DNA of 64,000 bases. Origin: Vibrio pomeroyi (GTDB taxonomy: Bacteria; Pseudomonadota; Gammaproteobacteria; Enterobacterales; Vibrionaceae). The stretch is from assembly GCF_024347595.1 (NCBI RefSeq), contig NZ_AP025506.1, positions 992,001 to 1,056,000 on the forward strand. The letters are read 5' to 3'. The position numbers were made by a program, and so were the translations under genes. Every line of letters starts with the position of its first letter. Position 1 is the stretch's first letter. The notes beneath the pieces are model-generated. The model had not been told where the DNA came from and made no database searches. It saw only the letters and a list, made by a program, of their open reading frames with translations. Below, piece after piece: positions 22,746-48,772 of the stretch.

Positions 22746-22966
22746 TTAACTCTTTTTCGCTTGGCGAGCTTCAAACGCGGCCAATTGTTCAGGCGTCGCT
22801 TTCGGTTGATGGTTAACTTTCCATTCATCGTAAGTCATGCCATAAACACGTTCACGTGCATCGTCTAAATCTAAATCGACTCCCATCAATTCAGCTTCTG
22901 CTGCATACCATTTGCTAAAGCAATTTCGGCAAAAGCCAGCCAAGATCATTAGGTCGATGTTTTGCA
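22746..22966 (-). pseudogene. DUF1244 gene, C-terminal remnant
   Basis: The minus-strand frame reads NIDLMILAGFCRNCFSKWYA, then AEAELMGVDLDLDDARERVYGM to the end AAFEARQAKKS. It matches the last two thirds of the DUF1244 protein encoded whole at 30680-31009. Homology stops upstream at about 22964-22966, where island sequence starts with an in-frame stop codon close by. The missing N-terminal third lies 25.7 kb away at 48664-48772 on the same strand. A short product could start at the ATG at 22949, but it would lack the N-terminus. The gene was cut by the island. Confidence 0.9.
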
Positions 22967-23009
22967 GTCTTAATAGTTACAATCAACTAATCAAACCCTC
23001 AAAAAGTTG
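22967..23009. repeat. Left imperfect terminal inverted repeat of the island
   Basis: Reading inward it begins GTCTTAATAGTTA and continues with AACTAATCAAAC and later AAGTTG. The right end read inward (48663 to 48627) has GTCTAAATAGTTA, AACTAATCAAAC and AAGTTG in the same order, with a few small gaps. These are probably recombinase arm or core sites. Confidence 0.75.
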
Positions 23010-23016
23010 CTAGAAA

Positions 23017-23062
23017 ACTAGTATTTAAAGCTGCAAGGATTTCTTTTTGGACTAGTATTTAA
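23017..23062. repeat. Two direct copies of ACTAGTATTTAA before the recombinase gene
   Basis: ACTAGTATTTAA occurs at 23017-23028 and 23051-23062, 34 bases apart, just inside the left end and upstream of the first recombinase gene. The copies could be binding sites for the trio proteins or an operator on the recombinase promoter. Function is inference. Confidence 0.5.
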
Positions 23063-23093
23063 TATATAAAAAACAATTAAACTACCAATAGAA

Positions 23094-24533
23094 ATGACAA
23101 AAAATGAGTCCATAGTCTTAGTTGCAAAAATTTCAATACGGATGACTGTTCGTGATGCGAATGTGTTTGCCCTCCCTTTGATCTTTGTAAATGAAAATCT
23201 GCTTGTTTCCTATGCCCAATATGCATACGAAAAGAGAAACAAGTCATCTTCTTGGCATCAGAAAAGTGCTAGCTCGGTAGCGTTGTTCATTAGATATTTA
23301 ATAAATCGTCGCAAAGATTTTTCTGATCCTGTTTCTTGCTTCAAATCGTTCATTGATGATCTTGAGTTCGGTACGATCGACCCAACAACCTCAGAAGACC
23401 CAAGCAATCTATTCTGGGCGCCAAAATCTTTAAAAAATCTAAATAAAACAATAAATTATATTACTCAATTTAACGAATACAATTACAAAAGAGCAAAGGA
23501 ACTGGCAGTCGAAAAGCAAGTACCACTTAAAGCTATACTCTTAAATAAAAAACGAACTGCTAGTCTCTATGAGAAACATGTAAACCTTGCAGCCTGGCAC
23601 CATAAACACTCAAACTCATTTCTGGCTCACACAAAAACGTTAGATAAAGACCAAATCAACGCTGCGTATAACATTAAGTCCCAGTATCGAATGCAAAAGC
23701 AAACCAAACTTTACACCTTTGATAGAGAGCGAATATTCGACCTGCTATATGCTTTCGGTACACGAGTAAAAGTCGGTAGTTTTATACAGACACACAACCT
23801 GCGTGACATACTCATTACTATACTCATGCATTTTGGAGGATTACGCGTATCTGAACCGTTTCACCTTTTTGTTGAAGATATAATGGAGAATCCAAACCAC
23901 TCGGGTGAAGCGCTAGTAAAGCTATATCATCCAGATAGTCGCAGGGAAAAATTAGCAAAGATGGGATTAAGGCCAAGGACAGATAAGCATAATCCACATT
24001 CATACTACTCAGGCTGGAAAAGCCAATACATCAATGAAGTAACGACTGTTAAATGGTTTCCTGTTGAGGCGGGAAAATGGTTTTGGGAGCTTTGGGTTCT
24101 TTATATGACGCAACAGCGGGTCGAGTCATCTCAAGACCGAATTCATCCATTTGCATTTACAAGCAGAAACGGGGACCCTGCCTCTTACGGTAGTTTTCTA
24201 CAGGCACACAAACGCGCAGTAGAACGAATAGGGCTTATTGTAGCCAAAGAGAATGGCACCACCCCCCACTCACACCGCCATAGATATGGTTCTGACGTTT
24301 GGGAAGTGACAAAAGATCCCGTCATATTACAAAAAGTACTACGACATTCGAGCCCATTATCGCAATACGTCTATATACACCCATCCGATGAAACAATCAG
24401 GTCAGAGTTACATAATGGCTTTGCCGCATTGAAAGAGATTGCAAACGAACGTAATGCACTCGAACTACTTTCTGATTCAATAAAAGATACCAGTACGGAA
24501 ACCTTCTCTCGATTATCTGAATACTTAAGTTAG
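23094..24533 (+). CDS. gmtY: GMT tyrosine recombinase GmtY
   Basis: The 479-residue tyrosine recombinase has a complete catalytic set: R251 in FGGLRVSEPF, H394-x2-R397 in HSHRHRYGSD, H418 in LRHSSPLSQ and the nucleophile candidate Y427. The N-terminal half is the arm/core-binding region. It is the first gene inside the left end, 5 bases before the giant integrase gene, with which it forms one operon. The name follows the three-gene arrangement rather than a database match. It presumably performs strand exchange at the DUF1244 target together with its neighbours. Confidence 0.85.
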   Translation: MTKNESIVLVAKISIRMTVRDANVFALPLIFVNENLLVSYAQYAYEKRNKSSSWHQKSASSVALFIRYLINRRKDFSDPVSCFKSFIDDLEFGTIDPTTSEDPSNLFWAPKSLKNLNKTINYITQFNEYNYKRAKELAVEKQVPLKAILLNKKRTASLYEKHVNLAAWHHKHSNSFLAHTKTLDKDQINAAYNIKSQYRMQKQTKLYTFDRERIFDLLYAFGTRVKVGSFIQTHNLRDILITILMHFGGLRVSEPFHLFVEDIMENPNHSGEALVKLYHPDSRREKLAKMGLRPRTDKHNPHSYYSGWKSQYINEVTTVKWFPVEAGKWFWELWVLYMTQQRVESSQDRIHPFAFTSRNGDPASYGSFLQAHKRAVERIGLIVAKENGTTPHSHRHRYGSDVWEVTKDPVILQKVLRHSSPLSQYVYIHPSDETIRSELHNGFAALKEIANERNALELLSDSIKDTSTETFSRLSEYLS

Positions 24534-24538: not shown

Positions 24539-27500
24539 ATGAAGAAACATAAACTGTATACACTGTTAGAGATAAAATTATATATAACACAAGCTCTTGA
24601 ACAAGAAGGCACCAAACCTGAATCGATTGATTCTATGCCCCGTAAATATCAAACACTGCGCAAAAATGATTCTCGTATGCCTGCAAGACCAAATGCCCAT
24701 TACTCAAAAAACGGTTGGATCAGTTATCGTGATCTATTTGGTCTATCAGAAACAAAGTTCTATCCAATAGAAGAGTTGAGATCCGTGATCAAAGAAGCTC
24801 TGGAACAAGAGAACACCGAGCCAAATTCAATTGTACATTTACAAAATAAGTATCGTGCTTTGAGAGAAAAAGACGCTCGTATGCCTTCAACTCCACGTAC
24901 CTATTATGCTTTAAAAGGGTGGAAAAGTTATCGTAACTTATTTGGTCTACCGGACATAAATTTATACTCGCTCACAGAGCTGAAATCGGCGATCGCACAA
25001 GCCCTGAATCAAGAAGGCATCGATTCTAATTCAATTGGCCAAATACAAAATAAGTACCACGCCTTACGAAAAAATGATGTTTATATGCCTTCGAACCCAG
25101 ACAAGTATTACGCTAAAGAAGGGTGGAAAGGATATCGCGACCTATTTGGTCTACCGGACGCAGAACTCTACTCATTTGAAGAACTGAGGTCTGTGATTAG
25201 ACAAACGTTAAAACAAGAAGGTACCGAGCCAGATACAATTAGTAACCTCAATACCAAGTATGACACCTTACGTAAAACAAATACTCGTATACCTTCGACT
25301 CCCCACAAGTATTACGTTCACAAAGGTTGGAAAAGTTATCGCGACCTCTTTGGTCTACCGAGCATAGATTTTTACTCACTAGAAGAACTTAAATCCGCGA
25401 TAAGACAAACTCTGACACAAGAAGGCATTACGCCTGAATCAATTCGTGGATTAACAAACAAATACCAAATTCTGCGTCGAAATAACTCTCGTATGCCTGC
25501 AGTTCCGTATAGCTATTACTCGAAAAAGGGATGGAAAAGTCTTCCTGACCTCTTTGGTCTACCGGATATAGAGTTCTACCCATTCGAAGAGCTAAAGTCC
25601 ACGATTAAACAAATACTAAAACGAGAAGGTACCGAACCTGAATCAATTATCAGTACATGTCATAAATATCGCGCTCTGAGTGTAAAAGACGTTCGTATGC
25701 CTGCACATCCAAATATCTATTACGAAAAAAAGGGATGGAAAAGCTTTCCTGACCTGTTTGGGCTACCGGACGCAGAGTTTTACCAAATGAAAGTTCTAAA
25801 ATCTATTATAAGACAGACTCTTGAACAAGAAGGCACTAAACCAGAGTCGATAAGTAATTTGTACAGAAAATATCTTGTCCTACGTGAAAATGATGATCGT
25901 ATGCCCTCACACCCAAGTGAATATTACCCTAAAACAGAATGGAAAGGTTATCGGGATCTGTTTGGCCTACCAAACATAAAGTACTACTCACTTAAAGAGC
26001 TTAAATCAACAATCAAATACAGATTAAACCAAGAAGATACTGGGCTTGAATCCATTAGTGCTTTAACAGAAAAATATTCTGCCCTACGTAAAAATGATGC
26101 TCGTATGCCTTCAACTCCAGGAACCTATTACGCAAGTAAGGGATGGAAAGGCCTTTATAATTTGTTTGATCTACCTGAAAAAGATTTCTACTTATTCGAA
26201 GAGCTTCAATCTACGATTAAGCAAATGCTGAAACAAGAAAACTCTGAACCTATCTCTCTTGGACGACTACAAAAGAAGTATCACGCCTTGCGAGAAAAAG
26301 ATGTTCGCATGCCTTCAACCCCACATACCTATTACGCAAAAAAGGGGTGGACAAATTTCCGTGACCTCTTTGGTTTTGAGTACTATCCATTTGAAGAGCT
26401 TAAATTCGTAATCAAACAAAAACTAAAACAAAAAAAAGTCGAACCTGAGTCAATTAATTCTTTGAGAAATGAATATATTATCCTGCGTAAACAAGATGTC
26501 CGTATGCCCTCAACTCCACAGACCTATTACGCAGATAAAGGCTGGAAAAATTATCGTAACCTGTTTGGTTTGAGCGAATCAAGATGGTACAGCTACCATG
26601 AAGCCCAGAATGCAATTCAAGCCTATTTAAAAAAGAATGAAAACATAAACCTTAATAAAATCACTCTAACTCATCTTGTTGACCTAATAGCTGAAAACGA
26701 TCCTAAAATGCCAGATAGCCCTAATGTCGTTTATAGGGAACACTGGCTAGGATTCGAGTACTTCTGCCAACGAAAAAGCTTCTATAACTTCTTAGAAGCT
26801 CGGCAAATAGCAAAATGCAAAGGCTATACTGAAAACGAAGCGACTACGCTATCTTATGCTCGCCTACGTATCGAAGACTCAATGTTTCCTCAGTACCCTG
26901 AAAAAGCTTATTTGAGTCAGTGGCGCACTCTACAGCATTTTTTTGGTGTCAATGACGGACGTTATAACACTCTCAGTGATGCACAACGCTCAGCAGTAAA
27001 AATAGCTAACCAATTAGGAATTAAAATCACTAGTCGAACTTACCCTGAGATTGCAAAATTAGACGCGAGGTTACCTCCATCTATTGATCGGTATAAACCA
27101 TATCAAGATGAATGGAAAGGATGGAAAGAGTTTTCTGGAACCATGAAGTACGATATAGACAAAGCTCGTGCGGTTGCCGTAGAGAATAAATGGTTCAGGT
27201 ACAAAGAATATGAAAAAAACTATCGTAACGATGTTAAATTACCTGCTGAACCAGTCAAATATTATGGCCTAAGCAGCTATGAAGAGTTCGTTGAGTTTAG
27301 TTACTGGGACATCAAACATGTCAAAAAGTACTGTGAAGACAACAAAATATCTTCCATCCGAGAATACATTATACATGCAAAAAAAAATGTCTACTTGAAA
27401 GTTAGGTACCAAGCAATTGAGGGATTTACCAAAGCTAGTGAATTTCTATATAAAGCAAATCTATTTGATAACATTGAATACTTAGGATTTAAACAATGGG

Positions 27501-29914
27501 CAAAAATAGCGCGACAATTTCTAAGTAGCAATGCCAAACGTGGTTTTCAAACAAAAAGTAAACACATAAATCAATTTCTAATACATCTGATATCTAAAAA
27601 TGCACTGCCTAGTAAACCGTTCAAATTATTTATAGCAGGCAACTATATCGAACCGATAGAACCGCTGATAAAGCGATCACATAACGGAAAATACCTAGAG
27701 TCCACAATCATTGAGTTTGTAAAATTCGTGATGGAAGATTGCTGTTACGACCGCGACGAGGATACTGGTGAACTAATTTCCATTAACCCAGACTTTCACT
27801 TTCGCCATCCTTACCAAAACGTAAATGTAGAGCTCGAATCAAAAGGTAGACCGAACCAAACGATTAAACCACCTCTAGATTTTGTCTATATAGATACCGC
27901 AAAACAATTCATCATTCCTGATTTTGTTCATGATGATAAAGGCAATAAGCGACCTTGTACTTCCTTTTCGGACCTCATTAATGCACACAAACTATTCGAA
28001 TCAGATTGGTTTGAAGTAGATAAAAATACATATAAGCGTGCAATAAACGACCCTAGTTGTGCCACTAAAACTCAAGTAATCACAAAAAAAGTTGAGTTAA
28101 AAGAAGCAACACAAAAAGTTTATAAAATTTGGTCACCTGTTAGAGCTATCGCTATGTATCTATTGTTTTCATTACCACTCCGAGGCATCCAGGTTTGCTA
28201 TCTTGATAGTGGTGAAGCAGATAGTGACAAACTGATTGAGCAAGAAGATGGAAGTCTTGCATGGGTGCCGAATGACAACCTCCTTGCTGGACAACTTAAT
28301 AACAAAGGTTTCTTACACCGAGAAATTGGTGATGAAGTTGGAATGAACGTATCGACAAATAAAACCAGCACAAAAGAAGGAGGGTACACAGTACCGTGGA
28401 TGCCACTAGATGTAGCGAAGTGGGTAATTCGTCTTCGAGACTGGCAGTCAACATATAACCCTCTTAATGCACCTACATCTTGGAGTGACATCGCCACGCC
28501 TACTGAAATGCACCAAAAAGTACTAAAAAAACGTGGCGGTCAGTGTTTCTTGTTCAGAGACCCACGTGATTCTCTGAAAAGAAAAACTAACCCACCAGGC
28601 AGTCAACCATTTCTTCCTAATTCAGCATACCGCGCATTTGAGAAGTTACTATATTTAATCCAAAACGATGACATACCGCTGGCACAAATACGAACAGGCA
28701 GGAATGGAAGTCGTGATAGTGATTTCCAATCAAATTATTCACCACACTCCCTACGCGTTAGCCATGTTTCAGCCCTTTTATTTGAAGGAGATGGACTCGA
28801 CCCTGTTATTGTTCAAAAGCTCGTTGGCCACGCCAATTTAGTTATGACAATATACTACGGAGTTATAAATAGCGAGCAAATGCGTGATAAGTTAACAAGT
28901 CAATACAAAGAAATAGCTGCGAATAAACAAAAGCAATATCAAGCATCTCTACTATCACGGAACCTAGAAGAAGCCAAAGGCGAGCTTATTTATCTTAGTA
29001 ATGGCGCTGGTCAGGTAGCTTGGGAAAACTCAGCAATGCGCTTTAAAGACAGCGGAATCTGCCCAGTCGCAAATGGTCGTTGCGATGAAGGTGGGCTGCC
29101 AATCAATCCCAACGCAAAAACATTGATCTATGCTAGAGCGAAGTCCTGCTACCAATGTCGTTTTTTTGTTACAGGACCTGCTTTTCTCGGAGGACTAGTT
29201 GCCAAATTCAATGAGGTTAATGTTGCTAGAAAACGCGCGAATAGTCGTATTGAATCGCTAGAAGGTAAAAAGAAAAAAATACGATTGAAAAAGAAACAGA
29301 CCGAAGATCAACAACTGCCGACGGATAATATTAAACTTCAATTAGAACAAATCAATACATCCATAGATGCTGAACAAGTAAAGTTCTATGATATTTCAAC
29401 AGATCAAGCGGCAATTTTCGGTAAGGTTCTGAAATGCATCAGGAAGATAAATGACGCAAGCTATGAAAAAAATGATACGCAAGGCGTTGCGCTAATTCTA
29501 AACAGGACCAAGGCTGAGGTTGGTGTGTCATTAAATGAGTCAAGCGACTTCAGGATATTGGCAGAGGTGTGTGAAGATGCACAAATTTATGACAGTATCG
29601 ATGATAGTGAAGCGGTAAACCTACGTGCAAAATATCTTGATTCCATGCTTACAAACAACGGCTTTGACGCAATGTTTTTTCAACTTGATGAAGAACAATC
29701 AAGGTTCATCGGAAATCAAATGCAAAAACTATTGCTAAATCGACTAAAAGGTTGGAAGAGCGTAGAAAAACTAATCTATGGTGATATGCAACTGTTAGAC
29801 TTAATGACTGACAATGATGGCAATTTTCAAATACTCAAAGAGGAAATGTCGCTGATCATTAATGGCTCTAACATTGAGACCTATCCTATGAGCGTGCAAA
29901 AAGTCGAGAGTTAA
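24539..29914 (+). CDS. gmtZ: Giant repeat-bearing integrase GmtZ (1791 aa)
   Basis: Residues about 5-685 are ten 68-residue repeats (core: EELKS.I.Q.L.QEG, then LR..D.RMPS.P..YY..KGW, then YRDLFGLP), resembling the phage-integrase repeat unit. Four more degenerate copies follow to about residue 930. The C-terminal part holds a tyrosine-recombinase domain with R1215 (LPLRGIQ), H1403-x2-R1406 (PHSLRVSHVS), H1431 (VGHANLVM) and Y1439/Y1440. A cysteine cluster (GICPVANGRC and SCYQCRF) and a lysine-rich coiled coil come next. The usual phage integrase is about 400 residues, so this is exceptional. The repeats may read a long DNA site; that is inference. It lies between gmtY and gmtX with gaps of 5 and 2 bases. 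Confidence 0.85.
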   Translation: MKKHKLYTLLEIKLYITQALEQEGTKPESIDSMPRKYQTLRKNDSRMPARPNAHYSKNGWISYRDLFGLSETKFYPIEELRSVIKEALEQENTEPNSIVHLQNKYRALREKDARMPSTPRTYYALKGWKSYRNLFGLPDINLYSLTELKSAIAQALNQEGIDSNSIGQIQNKYHALRKNDVYMPSNPDKYYAKEGWKGYRDLFGLPDAELYSFEELRSVIRQTLKQEGTEPDTISNLNTKYDTLRKTNTRIPSTPHKYYVHKGWKSYRDLFGLPSIDFYSLEELKSAIRQTLTQEGITPESIRGLTNKYQILRRNNSRMPAVPYSYYSKKGWKSLPDLFGLPDIEFYPFEELKSTIKQILKREGTEPESIISTCHKYRALSVKDVRMPAHPNIYYEKKGWKSFPDLFGLPDAEFYQMKVLKSIIRQTLEQEGTKPESISNLYRKYLVLRENDDRMPSHPSEYYPKTEWKGYRDLFGLPNIKYYSLKELKSTIKYRLNQEDTGLESISALTEKYSALRKNDARMPSTPGTYYASKGWKGLYNLFDLPEKDFYLFEELQSTIKQMLKQENSEPISLGRLQKKYHALREKDVRMPSTPHTYYAKKGWTNFRDLFGFEYYPFEELKFVIKQKLKQKKVEPESINSLRNEYIILRKQDVRMPSTPQTYYADKGWKNYRNLFGLSESRWYSYHEAQNAIQAYLKKNENINLNKITLTHLVDLIAENDPKMPDSPNVVYREHWLGFEYFCQRKSFYNFLEARQIAKCKGYTENEATTLSYARLRIEDSMFPQYPEKAYLSQWRTLQHFFGVNDGRYNTLSDAQRSAVKIANQLGIKITSRTYPEIAKLDARLPPSIDRYKPYQDEWKGWKEFSGTMKYDIDKARAVAVENKWFRYKEYEKNYRNDVKLPAEPVKYYGLSSYEEFVEFSYWDIKHVKKYCEDNKISSIREYIIHAKKNVYLKVRYQAIEGFTKASEFLYKANLFDNIEYLGFKQWAKIARQFLSSNAKRGFQTKSKHINQFLIHLISKNALPSKPFKLFIAGNYIEPIEPLIKRSHNGKYLESTIIEFVKFVMEDCCYDRDEDTGELISINPDFHFRHPYQNVNVELESKGRPNQTIKPPLDFVYIDTAKQFIIPDFVHDDKGNKRPCTSFSDLINAHKLFESDWFEVDKNTYKRAINDPSCATKTQVITKKVELKEATQKVYKIWSPVRAIAMYLLFSLPLRGIQVCYLDSGEADSDKLIEQEDGSLAWVPNDNLLAGQLNNKGFLHREIGDEVGMNVSTNKTSTKEGGYTVPWMPLDVAKWVIRLRDWQSTYNPLNAPTSWSDIATPTEMHQKVLKKRGGQCFLFRDPRDSLKRKTNPPGSQPFLPNSAYRAFEKLLYLIQNDDIPLAQIRTGRNGSRDSDFQSNYSPHSLRVSHVSALLFEGDGLDPVIVQKLVGHANLVMTIYYGVINSEQMRDKLTSQYKEIAANKQKQYQASLLSRNLEEAKGELIYLSNGAGQVAWENSAMRFKDSGICPVANGRCDEGGLPINPNAKTLIYARAKSCYQCRFFVTGPAFLGGLVAKFNEVNVARKRANSRIESLEGKKKKIRLKKKQTEDQQLPTDNIKLQLEQINTSIDAEQVKFYDISTDQAAIFGKVLKCIRKINDASYEKNDTQGVALILNRTKAEVGVSLNESSDFRILAEVCEDAQIYDSIDDSEAVNLRAKYLDSMLTNNGFDAMFFQLDEEQSRFIGNQMQKLLLNRLKGWKSVEKLIYGDMQLLDLMTDNDGNFQILKEEMSLIINGSNIETYPMSVQKVES

Positions 29915-29916: not shown

Positions 29917-30591
29917 ATGAGTAGTGAAAGCATAGAAGTTAAAGATGAAAAGTTGTGTAGAGAGATTGACGCTATATATCAATCCTTGCGGACTGAATGT
30001 AAAACGGCACGCTCTAAAAACAGCATAGATATTATAAACAAAACATGTTCCGAAATAGCGCAGGGTTCGAGGGATTTTAGTACTTCCGTAGTAGGTAATT
30101 TAGCAAAATCTAAAGGAGGACCAAGCGCACAATCAATCAGTAACAAAAACGGTCAACGATATCGAGATTTGATAAATGCATATCAACGAGCCTACCCGCT
30201 ACCCATAAAGCTGAAAACATCTACATCTAGAAATTGGATTGACCAGATACAACAACCGGGCATCAAAGGTAACGTTCTGATCATGCAGTCCGAGTTGAAA
30301 AAATTAAGGGACGAAAACAAAGTACTGCGCAACCTTCTTGCTAACAAAAATGACCTAGTAGTTACCCTAACTCAATCACGAATTCAATCTTATAATACGA
30401 GTTCTCACTTAACCGAAACTGACTTTGATTCACTTAAATCTGCAATTGATCCAGAAAGACTAAAAACGTTTGGTCTAAAGTTGGGGGAAGGCGGTAGCAT
30501 TGAGAATGCCAACGGTGCTGAGGTCTTTGAAATAGGATTCGCAGATGCAATCGGTAAAATAATCACTATAGATACTATAAAAGATGGATGA
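29917..30591 (+). CDS. gmtX: GMT accessory protein GmtX
   Basis: The 224-residue protein starts two bases after gmtZ. The first 110 residues are basic and probably DNA-binding (FSTSVVGNLAKSKGGPSAQS, NGQRYRDLINAYQRAY). A leucine-rich coiled coil follows (MQSELKKLRDENKVLRNLLA, about residues 124-143). In plan it resembles TnpC-type helpers of multi-recombinase transposons. It is the third member of the trio, and a helper role in recombination is inferred from that. Confidence 0.75.
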   Translation: MSSESIEVKDEKLCREIDAIYQSLRTECKTARSKNSIDIINKTCSEIAQGSRDFSTSVVGNLAKSKGGPSAQSISNKNGQRYRDLINAYQRAYPLPIKLKTSTSRNWIDQIQQPGIKGNVLIMQSELKKLRDENKVLRNLLANKNDLVVTLTQSRIQSYNTSSHLTETDFDSLKSAIDPERLKTFGLKLGEGGSIENANGAEVFEIGFADAIGKIITIDTIKDG

Positions 30592-30679
30592 AACAGCTCT
30601 ATCAATTTAGCATTTGATTAAGTAGCATTGCGTCATAAACCATAACATCTAAAAGCAAAGTTTAAAAAAGGAAAACATT

Positions 30680-31009
30680 GTGGCTCAATTTAAATACAAG
30701 CAGTTGTCTCAAGATCAACAAGATAAACTAGATGCTGCGGCATTTCGTCGCCTATTAGCACATTTAGACGGTCACAAAGAAGTTGCCAATATAGACCTGA
30801 TGATCTTAGCTGGCTTCTGCCGTAATTGTTTCAGTAAATGGTATGCAGAAGAAGCAGAACAACAAGGTGTAGACATAAACTTAGATGATGCACGAGAGCG
30901 CGTTTATGGCATGACTTATAACGAGTGGAAAGCAAATCACCAACCTAAGGCGACGCCGGAGCAATTGGCAGCATTCGAAGCTCGCCAGATTAAAAACGAG
31001 TCTAAGTAA
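30680..31009 (+). CDS. Intact DUF1244 protein carried by the island (replacement of the split gene)
   Basis: The 109-residue protein begins from GTG with MAQFKYKQLSQDQQDKLDAA and ends EQLAAFEARQIKNESK. It is the full-length counterpart of the chromosomal gene the island has split. It is on the opposite strand from the remnants and diverged from them (AQFKYKQLSQDQQ here against AEFKYKQLTQEEQ in the remnant). An AAGGAAAAC ribosome site precedes the GTG. The role of DUF1244 is unknown. Its place directly after the recombinase trio suggests it is fixed equipment that makes insertion harmless to the host. At the split point its codons differ from the chromosomal copy without changing the protein. 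Confidence 0.9.
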   Translation: MAQFKYKQLSQDQQDKLDAAAFRRLLAHLDGHKEVANIDLMILAGFCRNCFSKWYAEEAEQQGVDINLDDARERVYGMTYNEWKANHQPKATPEQLAAFEARQIKNESK

Positions 31010-31015
31010 TTGAGC

Positions 31016-32746: not shown

Positions 32747-32749
32747 TGT

Positions 32750-40498: not shown

Positions 40499-41122
40499 TA
40501 TCGACGTTGTGAGCCTGTTCTCTTATTACGATATCAGGCTAGTTAGAATTTGTGATACTTTGCTGAGTGCCAGTTATTCTTTAAGGGGTTCTTCAACGAG
40601 TATATGCGTTGAGATAGCAGCGACCATATTATAGGTTCTGATTTTGAGCACCTAAAAGTACGTTTACAGGAAATCACCTAATCCATTAAGTGCTAATTCT
40701 GATCTGCTCCAATCAGACTGGACACTTCACTAAGCGACTTTCCCATACCTGACGTTATCTGTATTTCCTTAATTTACGTAATTGCTCTAAGTAACTTTTG
40801 TCCAGAGGCTTGATAGACCTGAAGTTTTACTCATGGCACTTTTCTAAAAAGTGCCAGCTAGCTCAGTTCTGCCCCTTTTTGCATTAGACCTATTACTCAT
40901 ACATATCCTGTTAATGTGCGTTTGACCTACCAAAACTTATCCGAATGCAGCACATTTATAAATTATGCTTCACAGTGTGGTCTAACCTATCAACATAGCC
41001 ACTAACCTATTGATTATAAATTGAAGTTCCCGAAGAAAGGTTGCATTATATGTACATAAAATACGAAGTATAGTCGTACAGATAGCGTTATGTGCCAGAG
41101 CGAGTTAGGAGTCATGTCTTAC
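40499..41122. other. Gene-free DNA between the HD-GYP and HNH genes
   Basis: No convincing gene. It contains the second cargo-boundary motif (40786-40819), an imperfect TGGCACTTTTCTAAAAAGTG hairpin near 40832 and a TCAGTTCTGCCCC tract also found at about 33698. A TATGTACATA palindrome lies at 41049-41058, about 65 bases before the HNH gene and a possible operator. Confidence 0.4.
40786..40819 (+). repeat. Cargo-boundary motif, copy 2
   Basis: TCTAA-GTAA-CTTTTGTCC-A-G-AGGCTTGATAG, matching the other two copies base for base at the fixed positions with few exceptions. It is 287 bases after the HD-GYP stop. Confidence 0.5.
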
Positions 41123-41890
41123 ATGAGTATTCAGTTAAAGTTGGTTCAACTTCGAAAGAAAATCAGAGCAAATAAAAAGAAAGTAACTAGCGCAATCATT
41201 GACGATCACTCAGCAGAAATGTGCATAATTTGTGGTTCTCAAGATCAATTGACTAGAGAGCATGTGATACCTCAATGGGTCTATAATCGTTGTACGAAAC
41301 GAACATTCGAAACAACAACTAACGGTATTTCTCAGACTTACAATAAAACCACACTACCTGCATGCAAAGATTGTAACTCGAATCTCCTTGGTTATTTGGA
41401 GAGACATTTGAAGCATGAATTTGAAAAAGTCGATGTTAGTCACCAAGAGTTCTCACAAGAGACCTTAGAGTTAATCATCCTATGGTTAGAAACTCTAGAA
41501 TACAAATTTCAAGTACTCGACCTTCGCAGAAATTTAAATAAGGTAAAAGGTGCAGAGTACATTCCTTTTATTGGCAAAATGCCTATTGCTATGTTCCAAG
41601 GCTCTATGGATACGAGTCCTGCAAAGGTGTTCTCAAATTTTCGTTCGGCATTGCAAGTATTGAGTGTGAAATCAAAGGCTGATAAGCTTAATTCCCTTTG
41701 TATTATCCATACTACAAACAAAGACTTTCATTTCTTTCATTCTACAAATAATTTTATATTCATAGAGTTAGCTGAGTTTGGGGTCGCGTTTTTCTATTTC
41801 TATAAACAAACGTTTGATGACCATAGTGCCGCCATAAAGTCTGCTATGGAAATAGTCCAAGATCACTATGCAGGAACAGGCACACAATAA
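41123..41890 (+). CDS. HNH-type endonuclease (255 aa)
   Basis: The zinc-finger HNH core is clear: C34-x2-C37, then REH with H47 (TREHVIPQWV), then C81-x2-C84-N85 (PACKDCNSN). The rest of the protein has no recognised family. AGGAG at 41107 supports the ATG at 41123, although starts at 41114 and 41090 are in frame. The next gene, a HEPN-like protein, begins 28 bases after the stop, so the two form a likely pair. HNH plus HEPN suggests a DNA- or RNA-cutting defence unit; this is inference. Confidence 0.75.
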   Translation: MSIQLKLVQLRKKIRANKKKVTSAIIDDHSAEMCIICGSQDQLTREHVIPQWVYNRCTKRTFETTTNGISQTYNKTTLPACKDCNSNLLGYLERHLKHEFEKVDVSHQEFSQETLELIILWLETLEYKFQVLDLRRNLNKVKGAEYIPFIGKMPIAMFQGSMDTSPAKVFSNFRSALQVLSVKSKADKLNSLCIIHTTNKDFHFFHSTNNFIFIELAEFGVAFFYFYKQTFDDHSAAIKSAMEIVQDHYAGTGTQ

Positions 41891-41918
41891 AATCTTAAGT
41901 TTATCTGGAGTTCAGCAT

Positions 41919-42536
41919 ATGAAGATAAAAACAGGTACAGAGGCGGATTACCACCAGTGTATCGCAATTAAACATGAATACTTCAAGTGTCGCGATGCTT
42001 TTGAACAATTTCGGCAATCCGCCGAACATTTAATTCTGTCCGGTCATGATAAGTACAAATCTTATCGAACATACAATTCATATTCATATTTTATACATCA
42101 CCTGTACGAGTTTCTCATTGCTTGCCACGCAAGAGACTTTGAAAATAAAAATATAACCGACAAAAAAGGTCCTCAGAAAAATCATTTCATAGACTCACTA
42201 ATTGAAGAGGATGCTTATCGTGCGGTAAATGCAAGAATTGACCGTATTAGTCGTGGACAGGCTCCAAGTTATGAAAATGACATATCGCACTATGAAAAAC
42301 TTCTACCTATACCAGAATCATTTGCAAAGGACTTTAGGGTTTATCGTAACAAGGTTGCTGGTCATGCGTCTTATGAGCGTACTAAAGACCTCAACTTAAC
42401 CGATTTCTATCTAAAGTATCACTTTTACTTGTACCTATTGTTTGTAGATGTAGGTGAGTTTTGGGGAAGACAGGGAAGCGATTTTCCAGAATTCGAGGAT
42501 GTGACAAATTTTATGAAAGCCATGGCGCGTGAATAA
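41919..42536 (+). CDS. HEPN-like putative ribonuclease (205 aa)
   Basis: The all-helical protein has an R-N-x4-H motif at R143-N144...H149 (YRNKVAGHAS), the signature of HEPN ribonucleases, after long helices such as YSYFIHHLYEFLIACHARDF. It recalls AbiU2-type HEPN proteins, but no named family is certain. A GGAG ribosome site is eight bases before the ATG at 41919, which is preferred to an in-frame start overlapping the HNH gene. It is the second gene of the HNH-HEPN pair. Confidence 0.65.
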   Translation: MKIKTGTEADYHQCIAIKHEYFKCRDAFEQFRQSAEHLILSGHDKYKSYRTYNSYSYFIHHLYEFLIACHARDFENKNITDKKGPQKNHFIDSLIEEDAYRAVNARIDRISRGQAPSYENDISHYEKLLPIPESFAKDFRVYRNKVAGHASYERTKDLNLTDFYLKYHFYLYLLFVDVGEFWGRQGSDFPEFEDVTNFMKAMARE

Positions 42537-42981
42537 ACTTAATCCCGAGTGTTGAACAAGTCTGATTCTTCTATATGTAAATTATGCGATCATATTTAGT
42601 GGTAACTTCGCCTTAGTTATATTCTTAAGGCATTAGACTGTGTAAGTGATTAGCCCGGTTCTGGGTAGGTCGAAAAACGAGTAAAACTTCATTTGCCATA
42701 CTTGAAGTTATTCATGGGTTGCTAATATTCGATTTTCCGAAACTGATTTATGTCCAGAAACTGCATAGATACGAACCTCATAGACAATTTGGATAGCATA
42801 AGACGCTATCACTACGTTATTACTTAAAATCAGGCTGGAATCACTTACCTCACATAACCTACCTGTTAAGTTCTTAATAAGCATACCTAAACCCAGAGCT
42901 TTGTTCATAACTTTTGAATTTGCCGTTACTTCACTCTCCCGCCATAAGCAACATCAGTATTACTTAAAGTAAACTCTCTTA
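42537..42981. other. Gene-free DNA between HEPN gene and XRE regulator
   Basis: A 66-residue minus-strand frame (42708-42908) has no ribosome site and no family resemblance, so it is not called. Nothing else is seen. Confidence 0.4.
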
Positions 42982-43296
42982 TTATAAGTCTTTCTTCTGG
43001 CTCAGTGCTGCAATAAGTTTCTTTCTTTCGCTCTCTGTCATTTCATAGATCATGCACGCCAGTTCAGCAGAGCTTTCATCTTCACAGAAGAAATAATTGA
43101 GCGGCACACCAAGCTCATCGGCGATTAGCTTTAAGGTTTGAACATCTGGGGCGTGCTTGCCTTTCTCGTATTGATTCATTCGAGGGCTTGCTGAACTTGC
43201 ATCCATACCTATGCTTTCTCCCAGGGATTTTTGAGAGAGCTTTGCTTTTTTTCGAGCTTGTTTGAGTCGCTCTGGGATTGGGTTTTTAAATGACAC
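42982..43296 (-). CDS. XRE-family repressor (104 aa)
   Basis: It has a helix-turn-helix of the Cro/C1 type over residues about 8-65 (RLKQARKKAKLSQKSLGESI, NQYEKGKHAPDVQTLKLIAD), followed by a short helical tail with ESERKKLIAAL. It diverges from the winged-helix/helicase operon. Two identical-type palindromes lie between the two genes, so it very probably represses both directions. Confidence 0.9.
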   Translation of the reverse strand: MSFKNPIPERLKQARKKAKLSQKSLGESIGMDASSASPRMNQYEKGKHAPDVQTLKLIADELGVPLNYFFCEDESSAELACMIYEMTESERKKLIAALSQKKDL

Positions 43297-43325
43297 TTAG
43301 ATTTCATTTCTCTGATCTCAAGTTA

Positions 43326-43342
43326 ACTAAGATTTTCTTAGT
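43326..43342. promoter_or_regulatory. Operator palindrome 1 (ACTAAG-N5-CTTAGT)
   Basis: This is a perfect palindrome with arms ACTAAG and CTTAGT (extended: AACTAAGA/TCTTAGTT). It lies 30 bases upstream of the XRE start. It is the likely repressor site; centre-to-centre spacing to the second copy is 34 bases. Confidence 0.75.
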
Positions 43343-43359
43343 TTTATGGATTTCTGTAT

Positions 43360-43376
43360 ACTAAGCAATCCTTAGT
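43360..43376. promoter_or_regulatory. Operator palindrome 2 (ACTAAG-N5-CTTAGT)
   Basis: It has the same arms and spacer length as operator 1 with a different spacer (CAATC). It lies 24 bases before the ATG at 43400, where binding would block the helicase-operon promoter. Confidence 0.75.
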
Positions 43377-43399
43377 TTTTGGTTGGTGTAATTTTGGAA

Positions 43400-43930
43400 A
43401 TGAAACGGGCTCGAAGAATTAGTGCTGTCATGCACAAGTTATTGATAGAAAATGGGTTAGATGGATTCACCGTGCTAGAAGCGAGAGATTTGTGGCTATC
43501 CCTTGATAATGTGGACTCCAATTCTGCCGAAGCTCACAAAAAGGTGTACCGAGCAATTTTTCACTTTGAAAAGAAAAGTTGGTTGCGAAGTGAGGGCTCA
43601 GGCCGGAAAAAACGCTACTTTCAAACGCAACAATTTAAAGAGTTACATAACAATGTAACAACGAATAACCAAGCGGATATGAAGCCTAAAGTACCCATTC
43701 AAAACTATTCCATTTTAAGCAATGAACGTAACGAATATAAGGGCGAATTGGAAATAATACTTGGGGAGATTGACGAGTATCAGTCGATCGTATCTCGATT
43801 TCCTGAGCTAGAGAATAAACTGGCCCCTTTGCATCAAGAGGCTAAAGAGCGCGCCGCTTTATTGCTCGGAAAAGTGAACGTTTTAACAAAGGTTCTTAAT
43901 ACTCTCTATGAAGGAAATGAACAGTGTTAA
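43400..43930 (+). CDS. Winged-helix and coiled-coil protein preceding a helicase (176 aa)
   Basis: Residues about 1-80 look like a winged helix-turn-helix (VMHKLLIENGLDGFTVLEAR, HKKVYRAIFHFEKKSWLRSE). A linker and a long coiled coil follow (YKGELEIILGEIDEYQSIVS to LLLGKVNVLTKVL). The helicase start overlaps its stop, so the two are translationally coupled and probably act together. A TTG at 43379 would add seven residues but has no ribosome site. No named family. Confidence 0.7.
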   Translation: MKRARRISAVMHKLLIENGLDGFTVLEARDLWLSLDNVDSNSAEAHKKVYRAIFHFEKKSWLRSEGSGRKKRYFQTQQFKELHNNVTTNNQADMKPKVPIQNYSILSNERNEYKGELEIILGEIDEYQSIVSRFPELENKLAPLHQEAKERAALLLGKVNVLTKVLNTLYEGNEQC

Positions 43931-45303
43931 GGAAGTGGCAAAGTGAATGCTCTGACAGAGCGTTGAAAAAATATCAATCCAACTGCTCCCATTTCTTTTG
44001 CCAAGCTACACCTGGAGCAGGTAAGACAGTGCTTGCCGCTAATATTGCGTCAAGGTTGTTACAAAGTGACATGGTAGACCTTGTATTGTGCTTCTCACCA
44101 TCGTTGACGGTTTCTGATGGTATAAAAAGAACCTTTTCGTCGAGACTTAAGTGTACGTTTAATGGTGGCATGGGATCTGTCGGGCAATCTTTAACATACC
44201 AATCTATCCAATTCCTCAATGACGAATTTTGGCAAACATTGCGGAATCACAGGGTCTTTGTTGTCTTTGATGAAATACACCATTGCTCTGGCTCTGAGGT
44301 TGAAAATGCGAACATTTGGGGGCAGCAAGTTCTCACTAAGATTCAAGGGCTTGCTACTTTTACCCTCGCACTTTCAGGTACACCGTGGCGTTCAGACTCT
44401 TTACCCATTGTGATGGGTGAGTACAGCGACCCAGACGGGCAGCTTCTTGTCGATTACCAATACACTCTTAAACAAGCTATAGCTGATGGTGTTTGTAGAA
44501 CGCCCAAAATCGTCTTGGTTGATAATGAACACTTGTCTGTTAGTAGTAGAGAAAAAGTCGAATCCTTTTCATCAATATTAGAGATGCTTAAACAGACAAA
44601 AGCATCCTACCAGAGTGTTATTCACAACCAAGAGGCGATGGAATATCTACTCGGTTTAGGATGTGAGCAGCTAGAAAAAGCACGTCTCAGATCACCCAAT
44701 GCCGGTGGGCTGATTGTTGCAGCTTCGGTTCAACATGCGCAAACAATCAAAGAGATACTATCTCAAAAGTTTGGGCAAACCGTTTCTATCGTCACTTATC
44801 GACATGAAGAGCCGCTAGCAGAAATAGAGCGTTATCGACAAAGCGACGCACAATGGATTGTTAGTGTAGGTATGATCAGTGAGGGTACTGATATTCCGCG
44901 CCTTCAAGTATGTTGCCATATGAGTTCAGTCAAAACTGAATTGTATTTCAGGCAGGTGCTCGGACGAATACTTCGTGTGAATAATACAATAAACCAACAA
45001 GCGTGGTTATTCACTTTTGCAGAGCAAAGCCTGATTGAGTTTTCTGAAAGGATTGAACAGGATATTCCTGAGTCTCGTCTCTATGTAAGTATGGGGAAAC
45101 CTATCGAAACAGAGTTCTCTGGTCGACGAAATAGCTTAAGTGTCGCGCCTCCGCTTGAGCCCCAAAACAGCGCGAGAACAACAGTATCTTGGGAAAGCAG
45201 TACAGAAAGTTCAAATAGTCTCTATGGAGCATTAGGAATGTTTGATGAGCTTCGACTTGGGGCATTTAAGCAGAGAGTGATCTCGGCTTTCTCTTCCATG
45301 TAA
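43924..45303 (+). CDS. SF2 DEAD/DEAH-type helicase (459 aa)
   Basis: The helicase motifs are complete: Walker A TPGAGKT (K34), DEIH in VVFDEIHHCSG (about residue 115), SGTPWR (motif III) and RQVLGRILR (motif VI, about residue 345). The C-terminal 80 residues are low in motifs. It is compact like type III restriction/RecQ-related SF2 helicases but has no nuclease domain. It starts at GTG 43924, behind AAGGAAA, overlapping the previous gene by seven bases. With the XRE repressor and coiled-coil partner it makes a regulated module, and the second leader/95-residue unit follows 52 bases later. Confidence 0.85.
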   Translation: MLRKWQSECSDRALKKYQSNCSHFFCQATPGAGKTVLAANIASRLLQSDMVDLVLCFSPSLTVSDGIKRTFSSRLKCTFNGGMGSVGQSLTYQSIQFLNDEFWQTLRNHRVFVVFDEIHHCSGSEVENANIWGQQVLTKIQGLATFTLALSGTPWRSDSLPIVMGEYSDPDGQLLVDYQYTLKQAIADGVCRTPKIVLVDNEHLSVSSREKVESFSSILEMLKQTKASYQSVIHNQEAMEYLLGLGCEQLEKARLRSPNAGGLIVAASVQHAQTIKEILSQKFGQTVSIVTYRHEEPLAEIERYRQSDAQWIVSVGMISEGTDIPRLQVCCHMSSVKTELYFRQVLGRILRVNNTINQQAWLFTFAEQSLIEFSERIEQDIPESRLYVSMGKPIETEFSGRRNSLSVAPPLEPQNSARTTVSWESSTESSNSLYGALGMFDELRLGAFKQRVISAFSSM

Positions 45304-45355
45304 TTGAAGAAACCATAGGCTACATTTTCACTAAAGGCACATTGGGGAGGCCAGA

Positions 45356-45385
45356 ATGAATTACTTTGCAGAGGACCCCTTCTAG
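45356..45385 (+). CDS. Nonapeptide leader MNYFAEDPF, copy 2
   Basis: The same nine residues as copy 1, behind GGGGAGG. Identity of the DNA extends from the ATG through the TAG, the ATG-TAA minimal frame and the GGAGGGCAAATG of the next gene, while the sequence upstream of the leader is unrelated. That pattern marks this stretch as a conserved functional unit. Confidence 0.6.
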   Translation: MNYFAEDPF

Positions 45386-45407
45386 GTAATGTAAACCTGG
45401 AGGGCAA

Positions 45408-45695
45408 ATGAAACAGCTAAAACAGCAGTACCGAGAGCGCATTAAATACCAGCGCCAACACCTTTTGGATCTTTATCCGAGCGTTCGTAGTGGAACCCAC
45501 AAGCACTTTTCTACCAAGCAGGAAAAGAGCTATTACTTTCTTCACAAGATTGAGTGCAGAGAGTACCCAGTTAAGCTGCGCGCCACGCGAGGAAGAGCAT
45601 TAGCTAACCCATGGGACGACTACCCGTCTTATGTGTATGGCCTAGCAAAAAGTTGGAAGTATAACTCGAAGCGCCAAAACCAATACTACCGATAA
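45408..45695 (+). CDS. Unknown basic protein (95 aa), copy 2, with leader
   Basis: It starts MKQLKQQYRERIKYQRQH and shares RSGTHKHFSTKQEKSY, the REYP.KLRA.RG block and LANPWDDYP with copy 1 (about 69 percent identity by hand count). It follows the helicase module and has its own terminator, so it may be a separate unit. Function unknown. Confidence 0.8.
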   Translation: MKQLKQQYRERIKYQRQHLLDLYPSVRSGTHKHFSTKQEKSYYFLHKIECREYPVKLRATRGRALANPWDDYPSYVYGLAKSWKYNSKRQNQYYR

Positions 45696-45701
45696 CCCAT
45701 C

Positions 45702-45731
45702 AAAGCTCTCAATTCTGGAGAGCTTTTTTAT
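45702..45731 (+). terminator. Terminator after 95-aa gene copy 2
   Basis: AAAGCTCTC pairs with GAGAGCTTT around AATTCTG, followed by a T-run. Confidence 0.85.
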
Positions 45732-46565
45732 GCGATGTGCTCTCTCAACTCGAAGCCTAATTATTAGTAATACCATAGTGTTATTAGGTTTAAGTTATTG
45801 ACTTTAATTACTAATCCTTTGTAGTTTACGCGGGTGCTTCTTAAGTGATTACCCACATCGCAAGTTGCGATGCGCAGGTTGCGATGTGAAGTTAAAACCA
45901 CCTGAAATATTGCTTTCTGTAAGAAGGGGGATACGTGCTTCTGATTAACACACTATAGGGGCAGACTATTGTGTTGACTGCGCGAAGCGACACACTTTTG
46001 CCCCTAAACGTTTAGAGCATAAGAAACTATCAATAGATTAATTTGTGTGTAAGCCTGTTGCACCAGTTTTTTTAGTCCCAGATACGACAAAGCCACAGGC
46101 AATGCCTATGGCTTTGTAAACAGCTACAGAATGTTTGTCATTCAAAACGAAGAGGGAACACATTCTGTGTGCAGCGTCGGGTGTTTTATCACCAAAGTAT
46201 ATGGAAGGGAAAGCACCTAGACTTATCATATGTCCTCGGTGGTCTGCTTTGCAATTAAGCCAAGTTCAATTCGATACAATTACTTCTGGCCAGACAGTAA
46301 ATAGTACATCCAAGAAAAAGCAGGGATACCCGAGGCTCTCAACGTTAGTTTAAAGCTAAGAACTGTATGTGGCAAGCTTGCTTCTGCCCCGAAGCTCTTC
46401 AGCAACGACCCTCGCGTTGATTTAAGTGTTCCACTTTTGCAATACTTGAACTTATGGAAAAAATGAAGCAATAACAGTTCCTTTCTACTCTATTTATAAC
46501 TACCTATTTTTTTCAAACTAATGAGAGAGTACACTATTTCAATAGAAAAATGGGAGAGTAAAAGA
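45732..46565. other. Cargo DNA with possible gene remnants before the ApeA-like gene
   Basis: No intact gene is supported over about 800 bases. A minus-strand frame at 46038-46229 contains LFVLNDKHSVAVYKAIG, faintly like the C-terminal motif of a GNAT acetyltransferase, and may be a relic. The region also holds tandem TTGCGATG-type repeats near 45870 and a GGGGCAGA tract at 45959. The ApeA promoter must lie at its right end. Confidence 0.35.
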
Positions 46566-48269
46566 ATGTTAAAAAGGGATCTAAATTTCTTCGAAAGTTA
46601 CGAATTTACGGTAAAGTTCAACTTTGATGATACTGATTTTACTGGCGTTCTTTCTATTAATCAGGCAGGTATCCCACAGCTTAAAATACACACAGAAAAT
46701 CACAGCTTGCAGTTCGAAGAACGCAGAATAATTCAATATCCAATCACTTGTCATGAAATTGGTTCGAATAAGACATTTACTCTACATCAATCAGAACTTC
46801 AAAGAGGTGGGGTCATTATATGTGGATTTGTCACTACTGGATCTTTAATTACGAATGACATTAATCTGATAGAAGTACACCTGACAGGTATATCTACTTG
46901 GTTTGAAAGGTTACGAAGCTCAGAGATAACAGAAACGGAGTTCAAGCGATGTACTTCTATAGACAAATTCTTAGTTAACTTTAACTATAATAAAAATGAC
47001 TACTCGATAGAAAATCATCGTTACGTATCATCAACTGCGATCACATCAACCGATCATCACATAAGAATACAAGATTGTTTTATCGTTAAAAAGAAAAATG
47101 GCGGATTTACACTAAATGAAGCAAAAAGTATTGCTTTGGAGATAAGAAGCCTATTTTCACTTCTATTGGGGTATTCCCTCTCTATCAAAAACCTTTACTT
47201 GGTTCCTTCAGGGAAGCGACATGATTATCAATCCGTTACTTTCCCAAGTGTAGCCTATGAAGAGAAACCGTTTGATCATTACCACCAAGCGCTTTGCCAC
47301 GTTAATAATTTGTTCAACTGGGATCTTTGGGAACCCATCATAAAAAACTACTTCAGTGTTAAATCGTTCCGTACGATTTGGAACCGCTTAGTTGCCCCTT
47401 TAGCTCGTTCTAGTTCTGGAATTTGGGAATATGAGATTCTATCTGTCGTTGTAACACTCGAAATGTACTGTGAACAAGAGTCAAAGGGCAATGGACATAA
47501 ATTAAACAAAGAAAAATATAATGAGTTAACGTCACAGCTTAACAAAACGCTAGAAGCATTTATTGATGATAATGTTCTTTCATCTGAGGACCGATTGGTT
47601 CTAGAAGGGTTTTCGAGTGCTCTCGCTAACCTAAGAAATACATCCCACCCGACTCTTCAGCATAAATATGACTTCTTGATGAGCAAAACAAGCAATGAAA
47701 TTAAAGAAGCTATTTCCTTCAGTGACTATGATTTTAATGTACTAAAGAGACTTAGAAATAGTGTAGCGCACGGGCTAAATTACAAGACGATGATAGAAGG
47801 AGAAATAACTAAAGAAGTTCAAATAAAGGATCGCCTTTTAACATTGTTAATATATTTTGTTTTTCAGGAGCTTGGTTTTAATGACACCCAAATAGCGAGA
47901 AATCTAAGCCACACCCATAACTCATTCATACTCAACGCAGGTGGTAATGAAAGAGCTAGAGATAAACTAGCTGGTACTGCGCGTTTCATTACATTGCAGG
48001 AAGAAATCGATCTTAAGGACTTTGCATCTTTTGATCATATCGTTGTTGATTACGAATCTAGTACTGAGCAATTCACATTGAATAAAGACCTGTCCCATGA
48101 AACAAAACATCACTGGCTTGGTAGCGGTATATCTGATGTTCGAGACTTTGTTAGAGACAAGCTTCCCAAAGATAGTAATTCTGAATTGGAGTACGTTAAC
48201 AAGTTATACATTTCCAATGTTACAAATGAAAAATGCTACTACGGGGCGATTGTGTTAACTCATAGGTGA
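46566..48269 (+). CDS. ApeA-like HEPN anti-phage protein (567 aa)
   Basis: The N-terminal half is beta-rich, like the ApeA N-terminal domain (LNFFESYEFTVKFNFDDTDF). The C-terminal half is helical with an R-N-x3-H motif at R397-N398...H402 (RLRNSVAHGLNY), the HEPN ribonuclease signature. ApeA proteins give abortive-type phage defence, presumably by RNA cleavage. GGGAGAG seven bases before the ATG at 46566 supports this start over one 15 codons upstream that lacks a ribosome site. It is the last cargo gene, about 360 bases from the right island end. Confidence 0.7.
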   Translation: MLKRDLNFFESYEFTVKFNFDDTDFTGVLSINQAGIPQLKIHTENHSLQFEERRIIQYPITCHEIGSNKTFTLHQSELQRGGVIICGFVTTGSLITNDINLIEVHLTGISTWFERLRSSEITETEFKRCTSIDKFLVNFNYNKNDYSIENHRYVSSTAITSTDHHIRIQDCFIVKKKNGGFTLNEAKSIALEIRSLFSLLLGYSLSIKNLYLVPSGKRHDYQSVTFPSVAYEEKPFDHYHQALCHVNNLFNWDLWEPIIKNYFSVKSFRTIWNRLVAPLARSSSGIWEYEILSVVVTLEMYCEQESKGNGHKLNKEKYNELTSQLNKTLEAFIDDNVLSSEDRLVLEGFSSALANLRNTSHPTLQHKYDFLMSKTSNEIKEAISFSDYDFNVLKRLRNSVAHGLNYKTMIEGEITKEVQIKDRLLTLLIYFVFQELGFNDTQIARNLSHTHNSFILNAGGNERARDKLAGTARFITLQEEIDLKDFASFDHIVVDYESSTEQFTLNKDLSHETKHHWLGSGISDVRDFVRDKLPKDSNSELEYVNKLYISNVTNEKCYYGAIVLTHR

Positions 48270-48319
48270 AGTTTCAAGATACTTTTTCTAATTTATCAGA
48301 AACGGTTTGGGTTTATACC

Positions 48320-48351
48320 TCTAAATCGCTTTTGTCCAAAAGCTTCATAGG
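48320..48351 (+). repeat. Cargo-boundary motif, copy 3
   Basis: TCTAA-ATCG-CTTTTGTCC-A-A-AAGCTTCATAGG, 50 bases after the ApeA-like gene. The core GCTTTTG-TC-CAAAAGC is a perfect palindrome in this copy. Confidence 0.5.
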
Positions 48352-48626
48352 TCGAATTTTCCCAGTTGTGATCAAGACAAAGAACAGATGTCGAGAGGTG
48401 TATAAATTTCGTTAGGTAATACATCGGTAGCTGTAGAAGCACTTAGGTAGCGGAAAGGTTAGTGTATCGTTATATGGCTTGTAGATATGACTATTAGTAC
48501 TCGCATAGAAGCGAAAGTATCGAGTGTTCATTTGTAAACACATACACAGAGGACTTTGATTATAAACAATCAAACTCAATCAAAAAAAAGAACACTTAAA
48601 AAGCTAAAATTCAATAACTTAAAATT

Positions 48627-48663
48627 CAACTTGATAGTTTGATTAGTTCTTAACTATTTAGAC
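48627..48663. repeat. Right imperfect terminal inverted repeat of the island
   Basis: Read inward (reverse complement) it begins GTCTAAATAGTTA, then AACTAATCAAAC and AAGTTG, mirroring the left end. DUF1244 coding sequence starts immediately outside. Confidence 0.75.
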
Positions 48664-48772
48664 CAGCCACGTCTTTATTGTTGTCTAGATGAGATAATAG
48701 GCGACGAAATGAAGCGGCATCTAGCTTGTCTTGTTCTTCTTGAGTTAGTTGCTTGTATTTGAATTCAGCCAA
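48650..48772 (-). pseudogene. DUF1244 gene, N-terminal remnant
   Basis: From a TTG at 48772 the frame reads MAEFKYKQLTQEEQDKLDAA, then SFRRLLSHLDNNKDVA, after which it enters island sequence (GLNS) and stops. It aligns with the first 36 residues of the intact copy at 30680. Together with the fragment at 22746-22966 it rebuilds one DUF1244 gene of about 109 codons. It keeps its original promoter and GGAAAGAG ribosome site. Confidence 0.9.

Follow-up and report, generated by a model that had tools for sequence, protein, structure and literature searches.

How can a site-specific island land in the middle of a conserved gene? The question is raised by the window, a 64,000-nt stretch of the 5.66 Mb genome of Vibrio pomeroyi (G000:C1:992001-1056000), in which an island of 25,697 bp (22967-48663) sits inside the chromosomal DUF1244 gene and holds a DUF1244 gene of its own. 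The answer developed here is that the island brings the gene along. Very probably, this is a Gamma-Mobile-Trio (GMT) island whose specific insertion site is the middle of a conserved host gene and which supplies a complete foreign copy, so that the host keeps the function. The split gene and the carried copy are read directly from the DNA (Table 1). The conservation of such copies, their recurrence in other islands, and a fossil island suggest an expressed copy that makes up for the broken gene.

The original prediction placed DUF1244 fragments on the minus strand outside both ends of an island of about 25.7 kb and a complete DUF1244 gene on the plus strand within it; the coordinates and Pfam matches agree, and the element can now be given to the nucleotide. 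DUF1244 is uninterrupted, contiguous across the junction, in the four nearest relatives: G071 (L256), whose intact gene shares 99% protein identity with the window fragments, and then G017 (L259), G199 (L257), and G218 (L258). All four lack a counterpart of this discrete island at the same site. Their DNA matches the flanks at 87-97%; in the alignments the two pieces come within about 3 nt of each other where they join, at the spacer. The idea that the chromosomal DUF1244 of the window is itself element-derived was also considered, as it differs from the gene of many relatives, but the closer relatives show it to be native.

The chromosomal gene is split near codon 36, where all four empty sites read GACGTGCAAAACAT. 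The left junction is AACTATTAAGAC-TGCAAA-ACATC and the right junction is GACG-TGGCTG-GTCTAAATAGTT, the ends of the element being GTCTWAATAGTT in inverted orientation. A 6-nt spacer has been exchanged at the junctions, TGCAAA on the left for TGGCTG on the right, and the TGGCTG footprint was presumably carried over from the previous site of the island. A GCT that had been taken for the native chromosomal codon in fact lies within this footprint; the four nearest relatives have CAA (Gln).

Table 1. Features of the DUF1244 island in window coordinates, followed by two further GMT sites in genome coordinates
Feature	Position	Strand	Remarks
Chromosomal DUF1244, C-terminal fragment, left flank	22746-22960	-	sequence match
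Host 6-nt spacer, left junction	22961-22966		TGCAAA in gene orientation, identical in four empty sites
Left element end GTCTTAATAGTT	22967-22978	+	imperfect inverted repeat runs on to ~23002
gmtY, tyrosine recombinase	23094-24533	+	NF040693, 361.9 bits (cut-off 340)
gmtZ, large integrase	24539-29914	+	PF13009; NF047926, 548 bits (cut-off 600), aligned 14-783 of 784
gmtX	29917-30591	+	NF040692, 147.1 bits (cut-off 40)
Putative replacement gene, complete DUF1244, 109 aa	30680-31009	+	Pfam PF06844, E 3.9e-35
Insertion sequence	31016-32042	-	directly after internal DUF1244; rve transposase 31024-32007
Cargo region	32045-48269		several ORFs beyond insertion sequence
Right element end GTCTAAATAGTT, read inward	48652-48663	-	
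6-nt footprint, right junction	48664-48669		TGGCTG in gene orientation, absent from four empty sites
Chromosomal DUF1244, N-terminal fragment, right flank	48670-48772	-	
Second GMT island of the same genome (G000:C1), greB C-fragment	131109-131450		
Second GMT island, full greB	137752-138222		
Second GMT island, greB N-fragment	145305-145451		
G003 broken MarC-family gene, N-part	3556361-3556621	+	
G003 broken MarC-family gene, C-part	3575222-3575560	+	

The recombinase trio that had been noticed is gmtY, gmtZ, and gmtX of the GMT, as identified by NCBIfam models. The three genes are consecutive on one strand. GmtY and GmtX pass the cut-offs of their models, and the name of GmtZ is slightly less secure because its score of 548 bits falls under the cut-off of 600. 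GmtY and GmtZ both show the HxxR, H, and Y motifs, the pattern of tyrosine recombinases, and the N-terminal part of gmtZ contains an array of about ten repeats with 204-nt spacing (INT_rpt). Viral contigs, when scanned, yielded 12 relatives, ten of which are weak, and with GmtZ they yielded none. The insertion sequence that follows the internal DUF1244 has 25-nt inverted repeats that are 88% complementary. Cargo proteins include a cadherin-like/Big_9 protein together with an OMP beta-barrel, TPR and HD-domain proteins, an HTH plus helicase module, and an ApeA-like HEPN protein, among others.

Within the cargo, 42982-45303 holds a three-gene module encoding an HTH regulator, a protein of about 180-190 residues, and a DEAD-type helicase. 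The same module is found at G003:C1:3557507-3559740 and at L248:6280-8558. It lies close to GMT genes or copies, in two islands of Vibrio and on one Pseudomonas plasmid, and is possibly a defence system. Two related cassettes for a 95-aa protein (33229-33571 and 45354-45696) are 12 kb apart in the island, and their leaders are 86% identical over 94 nt.

The internal DUF1244 lies 88 nt past the end of gmtX, antiparallel to the broken chromosomal gene, and retains the whole Pfam domain. With the fragments it forms inverted repeats, one of 209 nt and one of 121 nt, each matching at 78% and far above chance. No consensus promoter was found at 30400-31100, around the gene. The original prediction saw the internal gene as a recoded version of the host gene, a view that has to be given up: the copy belongs to another DUF1244 lineage, and in the tree it is sister to the copy of G126 with a support of 89.

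G126 carries the fossil of such an island. Only one DUF1244 is matched in its genome, and that gene has an N-terminus of the element type. Ahead of it are a decayed end of gmtX (a weak model match, E 3.6e-4) and a short minus-strand remnant of a DUF1244 tail (45 nt at 80%); together the gmtX end and DUF1244 are 78% identical to the window at the DNA level over 635 nt. The neighbouring transporter may be on the side expected after an inversion between the copy and the broken gene. No gmtY or gmtZ was found in this 16-kb stretch (L069). Since G126 keeps the element-type copy beside a gmtX stub, a replacement can outlive its island. When the trio with an adjacent DUF1244 was sought in other genomes, the fossil was found, but the only intact island was that of the window; the DUF1244 type thus rests on one intact island and one fossil. 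A search of plasmids for DUF1244 returned 20 records, none covering 80% of the query. In 45 of the 227 genomes of the genus DUF1244 has no match, so the gene is dispensable in some. A double DUF1244 match in G140 was dismissed as a split gene: its pieces abut on one strand, the mark of a frameshift rather than an insertion.

Other GMT loci were collected with the GmtX model, which at genus level matches 31 of 227 genomes (giving 37 further loci), at class level 4 of 369 (3 loci), and at order level 18 of 394 (13 new loci). The window's genome is included in each of these genome counts, and G707, with a weak GmtX match, was left out. Further loci came from the best 80 of 231 matches in a scan with a GmtY alignment. 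Eight loci without a usable gmtY and seven without downstream ORFs were dropped. G007 has five gmtX copies of equal score, none of them more than about 5 kb from a contig end, which are either real repeats or an effect of assembly. For each locus it was asked whether an ORF within 8 kb after gmtX matches the DNA just outside gmtY, and 32 of 119 testable loci were positive. The figure of 119 counts loci rather than genomes because L148 (a repeat of L061) and several G007 copies remain in it. Removal of four duplicates from genomes already counted (L154, L160, L171, and L121) leaves 28 distinct islands: that of the window and 27 at greB, one of the latter in the window's own genome. In a control that paired loci of different target groups, only 3 of 226 pairs matched, and two of these three involved a single flank, L125; as this flank does not match greB, those two matches are other shared genes. 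An earlier shuffled control (36 of 351) had been confounded by pairs of greB with greB and was replaced by the cross-target control.

The second target was identified as greB from its sequence, with TIGR01461 and Pfam in agreement; a guess of coaD, made from length and position, proved wrong once the sequence showed GreB. In E. coli, greB is not essential. The broken greB is antiparallel and lies beyond gmtY. In 26 of the 27 islands the start of the copy falls in the interval from 4 nt ahead of the gmtX end to 22 nt past it; in L131 it lies 435 nt past that end. Nine greB islands have a 4-nt overlap of the copy with gmtX, which suggests that the two may be translationally coupled. The window's own genome has its second GMT island, outside the window, in greB (G000:C1:131109-145451; L054, L210).

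Fourteen greB-site genomes, the window's own among them, were selected for showing the pattern. Every one (14 of 14) has a greB that passes the family cut-off, together with two fragments, a C-terminal one spanning about residues 43-156 and an N-terminal one spanning about residues 1-47. All three pieces were also present in eight of eight further genomes, six of which had been chosen because they failed the first test. Loci that apparently lacked a greB copy (L126, L128, and L159) or a left fragment (L136, L161, and L164) belong to genomes that have all the pieces; in these eight genomes the full greB is not always beside gmtX, and in some the pieces are on different contigs. Altogether 22 of 22 greB-site genomes hold both fragments and a further greB, which is full-length in 21 and truncated in one (G203, in which the internal gene is C-terminally truncated after about residue 133 and encodes 139 aa). 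As background, among 46 relatives, greB fragments are listed only for two that have such an island. The opposite orientation of the copy, which had been offered as grounds against a simple duplication of the target, holds for the window and for 19 of the 22 genomes (14 of 14 and 5 of 8). It is not universal: in G954, G955, and G956 the greB copy is parallel to the fragments, and it is not beside the gmt genes that were found.

In greB the crossover separates the GAY codon of SENAD-Y from its TAY codon. At the left junction the gene runs directly into TAYCAR or variants of it. Right ends could be located in 11 of 14 cases (L204-L217), with six variable nucleotides in ten and seven in L054. These bases are all different and none is TAYCAR, which suggests that the last donor site was not greB. 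Two plasmids, Halomonas pTHAF12_b and P. aeruginosa pAFM-PA19-3158, carry a GMT with greB directly after gmtX. Each has a single greB match in its record and no greB fragment; therefore, donor sites other than greB are plausible.

The internal greB copies are conserved, with a median dN/dS of 0.021 over 29 pairs (pairs at least 75% identical, dS below 2), and their GreB is 45 to 98% identical to the product of the broken gene. In 22 of 23 cases the internal copy is closer to another internal copy than to the gene of its own host, the exception being L087, whose copy is closer to its host's greB than to other copies; L057, L084, L127, and L135 were left out of this count, and L084, a fragment without a junction, was also left out of the site comparisons. 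In a tree of the C-terminal greB part resolution is poor, with 48 of the 76 inner branches left open, and for this reason statements about families rest on the identities and on the GmtY tree.

In the GmtY tree (FastTree), the greB elements make up what is essentially a single clade, in which 36 of the 38 rows are labelled greB. The window groups with two other Vibrio loci with a support of 86, to be read with caution as the window is on a long branch. At one of these two loci, G003, where gmtZ is in two pieces, the GMT splits a MarC-family gene (Pfam PF01914). A full MarC homologue of 200 aa (Pfam MarC, 161.6 bits) lies on the minus strand adjoining the N-part, at the far end of the island, and is 52-53% identical to the two broken parts. 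At the other locus, L061 of V. anguillarum, a similar broken gene is found past gmtY, and the contig ends after gmtX.

At a further group of loci the N-terminal stretch of a gene that we take from its sequence to be radical-SAM-like runs into the element; this 39-aa stretch has no match in Pfam. When it was used as a query in 11 genomes (L089, L101, and L138 of the 14 loci were left out), no clear replacement was seen, although a very divergent copy could escape such a search; the stretch was found once in ten of the genomes, and G962 has a second match of 40% identity in a 660-aa frame. From this, replacement is a trait of some GMT lineages and is seen for greB, DUF1244, and the MarC-family gene. 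At five loci (L133, L134, L140, L147, and L157) the GMT group is near the 3' end of a glmS-like gene (SIS domain), the site that Tn7 uses.

Is the carried copy protected from its own island? The original prediction held that codon changes at the split point would block self-insertion. In DUF1244 the crossover codon is wholly different (internal GCC, Ala; native CAA), and the six codons around the crossover rank 15 of 102 six-codon windows in divergence, which is ordinary. Among about 110 columns of greB, those of the two codons just past the crossover take ranks 1 and 2 for excess divergence when unweighted, which weakens to ranks 7 and 1 of 109 when the internal copies are weighted by their 10 clusters. 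Of 26 greB pairs, 23 differ in protein at the two codons and all differ in DNA within 12 nt, but own-host pairs (23 and 14 of 26) are no more divergent than shuffled ones (means of 22.5 and 15.4), and the shuffling shows no host-specific matching. Uninterrupted greB genes of relatives (L218-L246; 25 read) have QY in 15 cases, TF in 9, and KE in 1 at the target codons. The TF and KE types resemble island copies, and some broken greB genes also carry element-type residues; such codons in native greB may reflect past allele replacement or the source of the copies. That divergence at the crossover lowers self-insertion is therefore only suggestive.

Other readings of the internal gene have to be weighed against replacement. 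It is highly improbable that DUF1244 is chance cargo whose match to the target is a coincidence: a single intact island of this type and the absence of DUF1244 from part of the genus would leave room for it, but in 27 greB islands the broken gene has its match beside gmtX, a MarC-family gene has a replacement as well, the cross-target control gives almost no such matches, and in the fossil a gmtX stub stands beside a DUF1244 of the same lineage. Nor does a host-side event, a local duplication or conversion of the target that would make the internal copy host-derived, carry any real credence. The same gene at the same locus is what such an event would give, and the L087 copy is indeed nearer to its own host's gene; yet the window copy is sister to that of the fossil while the host fragments are nearly identical to their own clade, and all the other greB copies compared are nearer to another island's copy.

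A third reading is that the copy serves the element, as a variant allele, an altered GreB for example, that gives the island an advantage or renders the host dependent on it. The wide range of differences between internal and host GreB, the fossil copy that outlived its island, and the plasmids with a greB copy and no broken greB would all fit. However, strong conservation marks the copies as normal GreB and DUF1244, as plain replacement would have it, and excision would restore the native gene, so that dependence would not be absolute; we consider this reading unlikely. Replacement of the target by the island-borne copy is, in turn, strongly supported by the contiguous gene in relatives, the recurrence with greB and the MarC-family gene, and the fossil.

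In the proposed sequence of events, a GMT island would enter its specific site midway along a conserved host gene, with recombination swapping the 6-nt spacer and, in the window, splitting the chromosomal DUF1244 near codon 36. The complete foreign copy, placed next after gmtX and antiparallel, would keep the host function. Two weaker steps may be added: homologous recombination between an antiparallel copy and a fragment would invert rather than delete the recombinase operon, and divergence between copy and target at the crossover might reduce self-insertion. The gene that such an island carries would predict its target, and the islands would be a natural counterpart to engineered rescue drives. 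They also suggest a possible route by which mobile elements replace core-gene alleles. More tentatively, one might imagine a natural insert-and-rescue class that has captured at least three whole target genes, averts self-destruction by mostly antiparallel placement and by divergence at the crossover, and through decay in place, as in G126, drives turnover of greB and DUF1244 alleles across the Gammaproteobacteria; taken as a whole, this is a speculative proposal.

Several known systems invite comparison. Islands in tRNA genes, and SXT in prfC, repair the end of the gene that they enter. They resemble the window's island in that insertion is harmless to the target, but they restore a 3' or 5' end, whereas this island supplies an entire separate gene. 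Synthetic Cleave-and-Rescue gene drives combine a selfish insert with a rescue copy that differs from the target; the window's island is natural and recombinase-based, and the insertion resistance of its copy is only suggestive. A 6-nt footprint or 6-nt staggered cut, in the passages available, is described for SE, Tn554, and GInt (PMC10214605, PMC5385486), and a 6-nt spacer is likewise exchanged at the window junctions. In the passages on SE and Tn554 no replacement gene is described, and neither "replace" nor "target gene" occurs in the main text of that paper (PMC10214605). GInt, according to the passages available, has an operon (ginABCD) of three tyrosine recombinases and the accessory gene ginD, high site specificity, and a 6-nt staggered exchange (Bardaji et al. 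2017, PMC5385486); it thus shares with the window's island multiple tyrosine recombinases with an accessory gene, site specificity, and the 6-nt exchange. By the same description, GInt inserts between genes or at gene ends, with a partial change of the target and an outward promoter, and those passages mention no whole replacement gene; it is set apart here by this description, and the window proteins are named by GMT models. Target replacement by GMT islands was not reported in the literature searched, the founding 2024 GMT paper being outside its reach, and its novelty is provisional. As known through passages that cite them, GMT islands share with the window's island the gmtY-gmtZ-gmtX module and a varied cargo, and are reported in Vibrio (Mahata et al. 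2024); the island of the window differs from what those passages describe in that it sits in the middle of a gene and carries a full replacement of its target.
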